Positions 9,401 through 47,900 of a stretch of DNA of 64,000 nucleotides are shown piece by piece. Source of the DNA: Closterium sp. NIES-65 (taxonomy: Eukaryota > Streptophyta > Zygnematophyceae > Desmidiales > Closteriaceae); contig CANXME010002334.1 of the NCBI GenBank assembly GCA_948144175.1, positions 62,001 through 126,000 of the forward strand, given 5' to 3'. Numbering within the stretch: the first letter of the stretch is position 1; the number at the start of each line of letters is the position of its first letter. The notes beneath the pieces are model-generated. The model saw only the letters and a list, made by a program, of their open reading frames with translations. It made no database searches and was not told the origin of the DNA. Both the position numbers and the translations under genes were made by a program.

Positions 9401-12400
9401 AGCATTCCAAAGGACCACCCACTCACAGGTACTTATCGGAGGCGACGAGAAGCTTCGACATCTGCGGGTCGAGAGGAAACTCTGCCATCTTCCTGCCCAG
9501 CTTGGTCAGCTCCCCGCGGTCATTCAGTGCCCCCAGCGCGTACAGCATCTCCAGCGCCCGCAGCAGCGTCTCCGCAGGGGGCGGGTCCATGAAGTCGAAA
9601 TTCAAGAGATCATTTATCCCAAGAGACTTGAGCATCAGCACCACATTCCCGAGGTTTGTCCTCTGAATCTCCGGCACGGTATTATCCTCCAACTCATTCG
9701 CATACGACCATGCTGTGTACAGCCGAAAGCATTTCCCGGGGGAAGTTCTACCCGCCCGCCCCGCCCGCTGGTTCGCCTGTGCTTTCGACACGGGGGTGAC
9801 GATAAGCGACTCCATGCCGGTGCGCGGGTTGTAGCTCTTCTGCTTTACAAACCCCGGGTCGATCACGTATTTGATCCCGTCGATCGTGAGGGAAGTTTCT
9901 GCGATGTTGGTCGCCAGAACCACCTTCCGGGCTCCCTCGGGCGTCTTCTCGAAAATCTTCGCCTGCATGTCCGTGGGCAGGTTCGCGTAAATCGGGCAGA
10001 TGATCATTTCGGCAATCTTCGTCCCCAGCCCCTTGGTCCTATGCCTGAGAATCTCCTCTGCTGCCTCAATCTCCTCCTGCCCGGTCAGGAACACCAGCAC
10101 GTCTCCTGCCGGCTGCGTTACATGGATCTGTAACACGGTTACCACCGCCGCATCTAAATAATCCGCCTCAGGCGCCTTTGTGTAGTGTATATCCACGGGA
10201 TACCTCCTCCCGGGAATCCGGAAAATCGGCGCAAAGTCGAAATACTCGCTGAACTTCTCCGCGTCGAGGGTTGCGCTCGATATCAGCAGCTTCAGATCCG
10301 GCCGAAACCTTGCAATGTCCTTCACGAGCCCAAACAGCACGTCCGTGTGAAGCGTCCGCTCGTGTGCCTCGTCCACCATCATGACGGAGTAGCTCGCAAG
10401 GTCTGGTTCGCTGAGGAATTCTCGGAGGAGCATGCCGTCGGTCATGTATTTGAGAATGGTCTTGTCGGACGTGCAGTCCTCAAAGCGAATGGAGTAGCCC
10501 ACCTCGTGCCCCAGCTTGCACCCCACCTCCTGGGCGACGCGTGCAGCCACGCTCATGGCTGCTACTCTCCTGGGTTGGGTGCAGCCAATCTGAAGGGGTG
10601 GGTGTGAAAAAGGAGAGGAGAATAGTTGTGTTTTGAGTCGACTCAAAAGTCAACAAGGAGAGGAGACTAGTTGTGAGCAGCGCCAATGAAAATTGTTCAG
10701 CTTGCCCCCCACCTCCTGGGCCACCCTTGATGCCACACCCATTGCTGCTACCCTCTACGGCTGTGTGCACCCGATCTGCGGGCGGGACAGGCAGGCAAGG
10801 ATGACGATCTGCGGGCGGGACAGGCAGGCAAGGATGACGATCTGCGGGCGGGACAGGCAGGCAAGGATGAGTAAAAAAATGTATAACCAGGTTTGCTAGA
10901 CAGGGTTCAACTTGCATCCCACCTCCTGCCCAAGCTCTCACCTGGCCTCACCTTTCCACACCTTGCCTCACCATTCCCCACCTTCGCCTCATCTTGCCTC
11001 ACCTTGCCCCACCCCTCCTCATCTTGTCCCACCTCCTCTTCTCCCCCCACCCCTCACCTTGCCGCGCTTGCCGTATCCCGTTCGGACAGATACTGTGGGA
11101 TCTGAGTCGTCTTTCCCGACCCTTCACCTTGCCCCATCCCACCTTGCCCCACCGTGCCCCACCGTGCCCCATCGCAACCCACCGTTCCCCACTGCTCACC
11201 TTGCCACGCTTGCCGTATCCCTCTTCATACAAATACTGCGGGATCTGAGTCGTCTTGCCCGACCCCGTCTCCCCTACAATCACCAGCACCTGCACTCACA
11301 CAAATCGCACAGAAGACACCACACAGCACGCACACCACACCGCACCACACCACACCACACCGCACCGCACGCACACCACACCGCATGCACCACACGTCAC
11401 ACAGCATGCAGCACACACACAACCCACAGGAGCAGGTCAAATCCACAGTCATATTACAGAATCGTGAGACAAACGCCTATAGAGCGACTTTTACGTTTCC
11501 ATTTTCTGCACGAACTGAATGCATGGCCGCTGCTCTTTGAGCGCCTGGTACCCACCTGGTGGTCGTTTATGGCTTGCAGCAGCTCCTCCCTGTATCGGTA
11601 CATGGGGAGGTTCTTCCTCTCCGCCTGTATCGTGTGAGTCGCCTCACAAGCCATGAGTGCCTCGTAATTGCTGAGACTCCTCCCAACCCCAACAGTGCCT
11701 ACCTGGTGGTCGTTTATGGCTTGCAGCAGCTCCTCCCTATAGTGGTACATGGGCAGGTTCTTCCTCTCTGCCTGTATCATGTGAGCCGTCTCACAACCCA
11801 TGGGTGCTTGGTAATTGGTGAGGCGTATCCCAACCCCCCCAGTACCCACCTGGTGGTCGTTGATAGCTTGCAGCAGCTCCTCCCTGTAGCGGTACATGGG
11901 CAAATTCTTCCTCTCCGCCTGTATCTTGTCAAACGCTGACTTGGCCTTCGATACCTCCACCTGCCGCTCCCTCTCCTCCTCGTCCTCTGAACCTTCCTGC
12001 ACCCAATCCCACCACATACATATAAATATAAAAAGAATATCCAATTGGCACACAAAGATAAGTGAGCTAGTTTCCACCACAGAATCACACGTAAACAAAG
12101 CGAAGGCAAACACACGTAGGCCATCCAATGAACAGCACTGTACCCACACTGTCACTGCAAGCTGTCCTGGGGTACTCACCCTGTCTCTCCAATATACAAA
12201 GGGGTACTCACCCTGTCATCTCCCGCCATGAGGGTATCTTTAATGAAGTCGATCTGATCCTCAAACACATACTCGTACTGCTCTGAGTCCACCTTACGGT
12301 CCTTGGACCCAAAGTTCACCGTTGCCTTGCCTGCCACACACGATGCACAGGACATGGTGGATGCGACAAGACATGGTGGATGCGACGACAAGACATGGTG

Positions 12401-44965: not shown

Positions 44966-47900
44966 ATCGAAACGCACCACCCTTGAACTCGATGGCGCAA
45001 TACTTGCAAACGCGGACAGCCCCGACGGTGTCAGGGCAGATGGGAACCTTGAAATGGTTGAAAACGAAAAACATGCTAAGAGTATTGTGGAACATAGGAT
45101 GAAACGCCGTTAGATGTAACGCGGTGGGATGTAACCGTGTGATCAGGCCATTTGATGCCAGTCCAGAGGGCAACGAGTCCATCAGCTCGCAGCACGACAG
45201 CAGTGGCAGAGTAAGGGGCGATGCAGGGCTGCTGGGAGTCCAGATGGAGAATGTCGGTGAATGGGGGACAGGCCTGGAGGAACAGGGGGGAGAAGGATGG
45301 GGGGAAGGGGGGAGGGGGCTGCTGGGAGCTGCTGGGAGTCCAGGTGGAGAATCTCGGTGAATGGGGGATGGGCCTGCAGGAGGGAAGGGAACAATGTGGG
45401 GGTGCAAGCAAGAACTGCGAGTAAGAGAGCGGTGACAGAGGAGGAGGGGGTGATGCAGGGCTGCTGGGAGTCCGTTTAGAGTATCTCGGTGAATGGGGGA
45501 TGAGCCTGGCCTGGAGGAGGGAAGGGAACAATGCAATGCGGGAGTAAAGAAAAGGAAGATGGATGCTGCGAGGTGTTTTTGAGAATTCTCAAAAACTCCC
45601 TGCAACGTCAGGGAAGGAAGATGGATGCTGCGAGGCAAAGTGAACAAGCCCTGTGAATGGAGGTCGCACCTGGGGGGGGAGGGAGCACTTGTTGGGGGGA
45701 GAACACACCTGTTGGGGAGGGGGCGCACCTGTTCGGGGGAGGGCGCATCTGTGGCAGGGAGGGCGCAGGTAGGGGGGCAGGGCACACCTGTTAGGGGAGG
45801 ATACGCACGTGAGGGAGGAGGGTGCATGTGGGAGAGCAGGAGTGTAGGGCGCACCTGGGAGTGTGGGAGTGTAGGGCGCACCTGGGAGAGTAGGGCGCAC
45901 CTGGGAGAGTAGGGCGCACCTGGGAGTGTAGGGCGCACCTGGGAGTGTAGGGCGCACCTGGGAGTGTAGGGCGCACCTGGGAGAGCAGGGCAGCGACAGC
46001 AGAAGCATCCACGTCCCACAGGCGCGCGAAGACTCCAGGGAAGCCACCTTGTACGGTCTGTGGGGAGGTGAGAGTGGGGGAGGTGAGAGTGGGGGAGGTG
46101 AGAGTGGGGGATGTGCAGAAAACTGTTGAACATCATACATGAACAGTAATTATGCATTGAACATTAGGTATGAACATTATATGAGAACGATAAGAGTGTA
46201 CAGTAGGCACATACAGTGATGCAAAAAATCCGTTCGTTAAGGGAGGATTCCAAAACCCGCTCCCACTGGCTGATGATTAAGGAAATCGACGGCTCTCAAA
46301 TGCTACCTCCTCTTCTCTTCAACCCTCTGCCTCCTCCCTTCACTCCTCCACTTCCTCCACTTCCTCCACTTCCTCCACTTCCTCCACTTCCTCCACTTCC
46401 TCCACTTCCTCCACTTCCTCCACTTCCTCCACTTCCTCCACTTCCTCCACTTCCTCCACTTCCTCCACTTCCTCCACTTCCTCCTCCTCCCTGTCCCGCC
46501 ATTCCTCCCCTCGTTGCACCTTTATCCCTACTCCCTGCCGCCCCATCCTGTCCTCCTCCACTCTCAAAGTTATAAAGGAGGATATCCTCAAAAGTAGACC
46601 CAATCAGAAGCCGCCAATTGTACCGCTCCGAGTGGCTGAAAGCGACATCTGTGACAGTTTCAAATTTCACTAAACGGGGTTAAACATCCACTAGGGTGTG
46701 ACTGGAGCGAAGGTGCTGCAAACGAATGATGCAATGGCGGGGACATTCTCCTCCCATGCCAGATGCTCCCTCAGCCTCGTGCAACAAGTCAGCCTCCGCC
46801 TGAAGAAACTCCTCTGAGCGCTCTTCCCTAATTGCTACACTGGATGCAACACCAGTAGCAGCAGCAGCATTAGGTGCGGCGCCCTGGTGCTGCTGGTCTG
46901 TGCGCGGCCACACAGGAATGCTCCCCATGACCACCAAGGTCGTGTCACTAGCAGAGAGGATTGATGCTATGGGGGGGTGGAAGTGAGGCATGGATGCAGC
47001 AACAACCCCTGTCTGGGGATCGAAGGCTAAAGCCTGATTGTATACACACTCCAGCTTGGCCTGTGCTTGGGCATGCGTTGGTGACTGCTTTGACTGTGTT
47101 GACTGCGTTGACTGCGATGAATGCATTGAATTCTGCTGAATATAAAAGACGAACAGCCAGCAGAGCCCAAGTCCCACAGGCGCATGCTGTAAGATGAGAA
47201 TATGTCTGTGCCCCCATCCCGCCCCTCCACCAGCAAATACCGAGGCCGAGGGCATGGCGTCTCTCCCTTGCACGTGCGACGCTCGGTAACAGCCCCACCC
47301 TCCCACCACTCCCGTGGCCCTCGCTTGCCTTTCCGCGGCCTCCACCGCACCTGCTCCCCCTCTCCCTTCTCGCCCTCCCCTCCCTCCCCTCCCGCTCCTC
47401 CCTCTCCTCCCTCCGTGTTCCCCTCGCCCCTTCCCACCCTCTCCAGGTCCTGCCACAGCTGCTGCTCGCCCATCGCCCCCTGCACGAACCAGAGCGAGCA
47501 CCAGGGGGCTGCACAAGGCACGATGGCAACGCACGTCCCTCCGAATCCTCGGCGCTCTGAAGTGCTTCCTGCTAGCAGTGCCTCAGCTGAACCTTCTTGC
47601 ACCACTTGGAACCCTGCTGGTACCACTTCCAACCCTGCTGGTACCACTTCCGACCCTGCTGGTACCACTTCCGACCCTGCTGGTACCACTTCCGACCCTG
47701 CTGGTACCACTTCCGACCCTGCTTCTCTTACATTTGCCCCTGCTCGTAGCGCTTGTGGCGTTGAGCTACCATCCCCCCTTGTGGGCCAGCGGGGCAGGCT
47801 CCACACGCACACCGATCCGTCCTCTGCCGCACTCGCCACCAGCCTCCACCCATCCTCGTTACAAGCACACCAGATATCCTCGTTACAAGCACACCAGCGA

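Follow-up and report, generated by a model that had tools for sequence, protein, structure and literature searches.

The 64,000-nucleotide stretch of Closterium sp. NIES-65 DNA described here (assembly GCA_948144175.1, contig CANXME010002334.1, positions 62,001 to 126,000; hereafter the window, whose own numbering is used throughout) contains many copies of an 18-bp palindrome, TTTTGAG-N4-CTCAAAA. These commonly sit at the junction of a local duplication, in a layout that we write as A-P-A, a palindrome P between two copies of a target A, and the same arms recur at tens of thousands of places in the assembly. The reading that we prefer, and to which we give about even weight, is that the palindrome is the core of a dispersed mini-element inserted at widely staggered double-strand cuts, each insertion duplicating the single-stranded target and turning A into A-P-A. 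Among described classes we have found none with the signature of these sites, in which a perfect palindrome is surrounded by a target duplication of long and variable length.

Abundance and structure of the palindrome

Allowing up to three mismatches, the motif matches the window 34 times, where shuffled sequences give a mean of 2.36 and at most 6. Collapsing a 14-copy, 68-bp array to one leaves 21 sites; 12 of these have no more than two mismatches, against 0.25 expected from an order-3 Markov model (40 sequences), and none of 199 scrambled versions of the arms reaches 21 sites (mean 1.9, largest 16). Chance should account for about 2 of the 21, and the matches at 452 and 23671 look like such cases. 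In the assembly of 874,075,685 bases, exact arms with a free N4 occur 30,327 times and the reversed pattern 4 times, a ratio of about 7,600; because matches inside tandem arrays are counted too, the number of independent insertions is smaller than this. A chance origin of the motif is ruled out by the shuffle, Markov, scrambled-arm and genome-wide counts alike. The first-pass annotation of this DNA had called the recurrence of the palindrome far from random and had proposed a count over the whole assembly, and at both scales the numbers lie far above the level set by composition. Among the copies that it listed as perfect or nearly so, those at 10631 and 24594 (TCGA centre) and 45577 (AATT) are perfect 18-mers or longer and that at 35595-35610 (GCGC) is a perfect 16-mer, but those at 37534 and 37248 carry two mismatches each; its list of decayed copies is right in substance, except that 28432 and 63026 exceed three mismatches and fall outside the 21.

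For a view beyond the window we use stretches fetched from three contigs (C6, C9 and C10), the first listed by the motif search of the assembly, which hold 51 exact-arm sites representing 36 independent loci. The centres are mostly self-complementary (TCGA, GCGC, ACGT and AATT), the fourth of these, ACGT, having appeared among the first assembly places listed, together with several tandem arrays with one palindrome per unit. A self-complementary centre is present in 32 of the 36 loci, compared with 2 of 120 among the viral matches listed. Within the window, 11 of the 21 centres are fully self-complementary, 6 retain one of the two pairs and 4 retain none, and the earlier statement that centres are always self-complementary therefore holds for the perfect copies but not for all sites.

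The palindrome reaches at least 3 bp past the core in 16 of the 36 loci and 17 bp past it in one (L176:704), where part of the extension may be flank; in A-P-A units its size ranges from 18 to about 50 bp. Outside the core, the sequence tGAC tends to be common to copies with a TCGA centre (20 loci). The sequence ACGTG tends to sit about 13-18 bp to the left of ACGT-centre copies (L153:545, L164:692, L168:816 and L176:704), and is perhaps part of a longer subfamily element or a target preference.

Direct repeats abutting the palindrome

Flanking repeats were scored at the junction itself, with an alignment anchored at the last bases of the left flank and the first bases of the right, such that only direct repeats abutting both sides score. 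In the window the threshold was an empirical p≤0.05 from 2,500 random positions outside tandem arrays, with repeats within 3 bp on both sides. By this measure 13 of the 21 sites are abutted on both sides, compared with 5% of random positions, and treating each of two small arrays, which hold two copies apiece, as a single site gives 11 of 19. A general richness of the region in repeats does not account for this, as only 7.4% of 443 local control positions, 60-400 bp from the sites, pass.

The exact copies on the three contigs were scored likewise. Abutting repeats with a score of at least 8 are found at 32 of the 36 independent loci (45 of the 51 sites when array members are counted), while of 480 control positions drawn at random from large contigs (eight 5-kb stretches) only 5 score as high over the same range of shifts, the flank length being 250 for the loci and 220 for the control positions. 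A wide junction search finds 36 of 39 sites flanked, three of them in the window; it has no control of equal breadth, and 32 of 36 is therefore the figure that we use. The excess of flanking repeats over random sites that the first-pass annotation had suggested looking for is thus present.

This flanking is not a property of palindromes in general, nor of these arms wherever they occur. None of 23 other palindromes of at least 12 bp in the window is flanked. Among the at least 120 viral matches listed with the same arms, none of 114 testable sites has abutting repeats. Exact arms with a KCGM centre occur at 26 places in GTDB contigs (257 billion bases) and at 2 in viral contigs, one per contig; 12 of these 28 are perfect palindromes and none is flanked. 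The window palindromes and the 28 viral and prokaryotic sites rule out the notion that any palindrome attracts duplications, and the single, unflanked KCGM matches give nothing that points to a viral or prokaryotic origin.

Anatomy of individual sites

The sites are as follows, with a strand given for those features that have one.

602..623: coding-duplication junction with filler too decayed to call an element; copies 470-601 and 624-773 (86%)
10604..10675, forward strand: A-P-A unit, palindrome between 10604-10630 and 10649-10675 (27 bp, 89%)
10631..10648: perfect palindrome, TCGA centre, between exon echo and main exon of a DHX16-type gene
11632..11649: decayed palindrome in a 147-bp exon-echo array of the DHX16-type gene; copies 11516-11631 and 11654-11778 (82%)
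11779..11796: decayed palindrome, second unit of the 147-bp exon-echo array; copies 11651-11778 and 11798-11925 (85%)
16306..16326: decayed palindrome at a coding-duplication junction; copies 16180-16305 and 16327-16453 (81%), consensus donor inside the copy
24592..24613: palindrome, TCGA centre, perfect over 22 bp; copies 24546-24592 and 24613-24656 (44-47 bp, without substitutions and with a single 3-bp gap)
30794..30818: exon echo with a decayed palindrome of GCGC centre; copies 30635-30793 and 30819-30977 (82%), consensus donor at 30773
33085..33106: decayed palindrome, TCGA centre; copies 33023-33084 and 33107-33165 (71%)
35594..35640: GCGC and GTGC palindromes starting 29 bp apart, the first perfect over 16 bp and the second decayed; no duplication seen to abut them
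35817..35835: decayed palindrome, GCGC centre; copies 35770-35816 and 35836-35882 (85%)
37247..37266: palindrome, GCGC centre, right arm decayed; copies 37191-37246 and 37267-37333 (84%)
37509..37622, forward strand: A-P-A-P-A on a 26-bp target, its palindromes (37535 and 37579) being of TCGA type
37927..37944: decayed palindrome lying between copies 37830-37865 and 37951-37986, of which the left does not abut it
41900..42896, forward strand: tandem array, 68 bp x 14.7, unit composed of a 49-bp target and a decayed GCGC palindrome
45575..45596: palindrome, AATT centre, perfect over 22 bp; exact 22-bp copies 45552-45573 and 45614-45635
62204..62222: strongly decayed palindrome (9 of 14 arm bases) at a coding-duplication junction; copies 62076-62203 and 62223-62342 (84%), the first exon copy breaking off at the element

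The clearest A-P-A cases in the window are those at 24592-24613 and 45575-45596; the filler at the second of these also contains TCCCTGCAACGTCAGGG, a second short hairpin-like filler behind the palindrome. All nine cases named in the first-pass annotation do lie between two copies of a direct repeat, although at 37927 (there given as 37926) a gap of 61 bp separates the left copy from the element. To these can be added the flanked sites at 11632/11779 and 37535/37579, the 41900-42896 array and, in strongly decayed form, the copy at 62205. Palindromes in pairs, separated by 11 bp (29 bp from start to start), are seen both at 35594-35640 and at L156:522-568, and possibly represent a composite form.

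The length of the duplication is variable, being 16-94 bp in the junction analysis at ≥85% identity and 128 bp at 11779, and alignments of lower identity extend to 213 bp. At six single sites whose second copy ends within the sequence inspected (10631, 24594, 33087, 35817, 37249 and 45577) no palindrome follows the second copy, and the palindrome was therefore added and is not part of the duplicated stretch. This order of events bears on the proposal that the palindrome is an older nuclease cut site at which repair duplicates the neighbouring stretch. Several palindromes do stand in successive copies at some loci (37509-37622, and L158:557 and 616, which have different centres), as an older site could give; but the proposal predicts A-P-A-P or P-A-P, where all six single sites show A-P-A only, and we regard it as very improbable.

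The decay of the arms tracks the divergence of the flanking copies (Spearman 0.63, p 0.039, n=11), as expected if palindrome and duplication arose at once; the set consists of 11 hand-entered events, and excludes the arrays of 44 and 68 bp, the junction at 602 and all unflanked sites. Since the copies have diverged and the element decays with them, a sequencing artefact is ruled out.

Exon echoes

At 8-12 kb lies a helicase gene, present in separate pieces, whose matches to DHX16-type proteins reach 88%. A split gene of this kind, together with the Closterium match of the protein at 24834-25508, identifies the window as nuclear DNA of a zygnematophyte alga. Four exon stretches of the gene are present two or three times, giving four sets of exon echoes, and the palindromes at 11632 and 11779 stand at the junctions of its three-copy exon. 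A consensus splice site lies inside the duplicated stretch at all six coding junctions examined (602, 11632, 11779, 16306, 30796 and 62205). At 602 and 62205 the first exon copy stops at the junction and the second reads on, and at 16306 and 30796 the complete exon copy is the first in the direction of transcription.

The simplest reading, drawn from the sequence, is that an insertion would leave a usable exon and survive when a splice site lies within its duplication. Hits in exons would then probably be tolerated because one complete copy of the exon remains, the cut copy staying in the intron as an exon echo. This recalls intron gain by tandem duplication or by break repair, in which exon pieces with splice sites are duplicated (PMC3443670, in the portion available), but here it is existing introns that appear to gain a truncated exon copy.

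A possible route of insertion

The A-P-A layout could arise in three steps. The two strands would be cut tens of bases apart; each overhanging 3' end would acquire a short self-complementary tail identical to that of the other, or else a small duplex of this kind, and the two ends would pair through the tails, whose last four bases are self-complementary; and fill-in synthesis would copy each overhang, leaving the direct repeats. Pairing at the end of the tail would explain why the arms are constant while the centre varies only among self-complementary tetranucleotides, and paired tails followed by fill-in would yield the TTTTGAG-N4-CTCAAAA sequence, the symmetry of the insert and the variable flanking duplication. 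Fill-in of 3' overhangs by CST and Pol alpha-primase is an established source of small tandem duplications (PMC8355091, here and below in the portion available). Those duplications resemble ours in being direct, tens of bp long and made at staggered breaks, but that portion of PMC8355091 describes no constant junction sequence, whereas in Closterium a constant palindrome is at the junction.

Of the two explanations offered in the first-pass annotation, a mobile mini-palindrome whose insertion creates long target duplications fits the junctions best. The other, a hairpin inserted during break repair with template switching, may still account for how the ends are joined, but purely local templating would hardly give arms that are constant over 30,327 copies. 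The same difficulty faces the wider alternative of local repair or replication slippage, in which fold-back synthesis and template switching make a hairpin at a break and no mobile element is involved. The palindrome does run past the core into apparent flank in some copies (17 bp at L176:704), as fold-back would give, and many duplications in the window have other fillers; with 30,327 occurrences of these arms and 4 of the control pattern, however, local templates are a poor source of the arms, and we consider this explanation unlikely.

The main alternative is a minimal non-autonomous DNA transposon, consisting of two terminal inverted repeats back to back with no interior, which is mobilised by a full-length relative whose enzyme makes cuts of long and variable stagger. 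The insert is an inverted repeat throughout the core and often beyond it, as in transposons with terminal inverted repeats and in miniature inverted-repeat transposable elements (MITEs). Constant arms in so many copies favour a copied element over random filler, as do the longer arms common to subfamilies, such as the tGAC outside the TCGA core. Known transposases make fixed target duplications of 2-10 bp, however, and those observed here are neither short nor fixed, extending from 16 to over 90 bp. We regard such a transposon with an unusual cut as possible but doubtful.

Also considered was a very short hairpin RNA copied in by target-primed reverse transcription. The variable length of the duplications fits this well, being shared with short and long interspersed nuclear elements, and the palindrome is able to form a hairpin (folded as DNA). 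But the young inserts are symmetric and by eye lack the one-sided 3' tail of such elements, and the centre varies in self-complementary units, a constraint that reverse transcription would not impose; this route is in our view quite unlikely. No RNA family or tRNA gene is found in the window at default thresholds, and none of five two-unit repeats tried as a telomere-like source is present there.

A number of observations weigh against insertion at staggered cuts, or limit how far it can be extended. Eight of the 21 window sites (452, 23671, 28472, 28603, 35594, 35623, 37927 and 41796) fail the flank test, and 4 of the 36 loci have no abutting repeat; the 36 loci come from three contigs and are not a random sample of the genome. 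Within the fetched loci, 29% of 960 positions at least 120 bp from elements also pass, which we attribute to positions lying partly inside the same duplications. In fifteen 10-kb chunks at fixed places there are 6 matches with up to three mismatches, 3 of them with repeats, and the one exact copy has none; as 33% of random positions in these chunks score, which suggests satellite-like sequence, the set says little. Two weak matches in 40 kb from large contigs are both unflanked. With only 8 matches at this level in these two sets of chunks (150 kb and 40 kb), which were chosen irrespective of the element, the density of the element is uneven. Long alignments of low identity may be over-extended, and many junctions in the window lack a palindrome, so that duplication also happens without the element. 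Lastly, the pairing of tails is a step that we infer.

Relation to known elements

The GC clusters and other hairpin elements of fungal and sponge mitochondria and the palindromes of Volvox organelles are very short, dispersed and gene-free, and are thought to be mobile (PMC4478555, PMC2800124 and PMC2670323, in the portions available). The Closterium palindrome is likewise short, dispersed and without genes. Those elements are organellar, however, whereas the Closterium copies are nuclear, lying at 30,327 exact-arm sites in an assembly of 874 Mb and, in the window, among split nuclear genes. Yeast GC clusters are bordered by the direct repeats AG or ACT (PMC4478555), and the Closterium palindrome has duplications of tens of bp in place of such 2-3 bp borders. 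The nuclear copies of the Volvox palindromes were read by their authors, in the account available, as inert transfers of organelle DNA.

MITEs and introners are also short and gene-free, with inverted repeats, target duplications and copies inside genes (PMC7789003, in the portion available). The direct repeats reported there are 3-5 nt for Amoebophrya introners and 10-15 bp for MITEs, while the Closterium element has no interior beyond the palindrome and has duplications of 16 to over 90 bp. Introners make a new spliced intron on insertion; what the Closterium sites show in this respect is exon echoes. The Closterium palindrome has something in common with mitochondrial hairpins, MITEs, target-primed elements and break-repair duplications, and for each of these kinds at least one of the defining features tested does not hold. 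The first-pass annotation knew of no described element of this form, and we have found no nuclear one among the papers listed in searches of the open-access literature, subscription papers being outside the search; the string 'palindrom' is absent from the main text of the Closterium genome paper (PMC10407611, supplements outside the search).

We suggest, with somewhat less confidence than for the insertion itself, that these palindromes may represent a new class of mobile DNA: self-complementary elements the size of an oligonucleotide and without an interior, present in tens of thousands of nuclear copies, inserted by the pairing of identical tails across a staggered break, and each duplicating tens of bases, scattering exon echoes and seeding arrays. 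If so, they would be among the shortest dispersed mobile sequences, and would offer a concrete route for the birth of short tandem duplications, of exon pieces in introns and of tandem arrays, three questions usually kept separate that one mechanism would join. The mechanism is testable by site-by-site comparison of Closterium strains that have already been sequenced.

Tandem arrays and other duplications

The window shows single A-P-A units, the double unit at 37509-37622 and the 14.7-unit array at 41900-42896, and contigs C6 and C10 hold arrays of 37, 53 and 42 bp of the same A-P kind. The presence of single, double and array forms suggests that insertion seeds tandem arrays, probably from the two direct copies that it would leave. 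At L158:557 and 616, palindromes with GCGC and ACGT centres separate copies of one target of about 41 bp, their positions within the unit almost coinciding.

The window also has tandem duplications, about 80-160 bp long and in several cases exon-bearing, with no palindrome recognisable at their junctions.

7408-7694, 8198-8532, 19328-19592, 20161-20718, 21044-21343, 29476-29751 and 62373-62965: duplications without palindrome, from the window repeat and junction scans

A protein predicted at 24834-25508 on the minus strand is 90% identical to a protein of Closterium sp. NIES-54, its only match at E 0.001 or better among 5.8 billion proteins. The NIES-54 relative carries Pfam PF07452, the CHRD domain.

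The window is also very rich in nearly perfect short-period arrays, with units of 13-22 bp in up to 54 copies.

8574-9020, 12342-13363, 14375-14959, 16586-16856, 22772-23423, 55157-55847 and 63732-64000: short-period arrays, from the tandem-repeat listing

The 16-bp unit of the array at 16586 contains GGCGCC, which is like the centre of one of the palindrome subfamilies.

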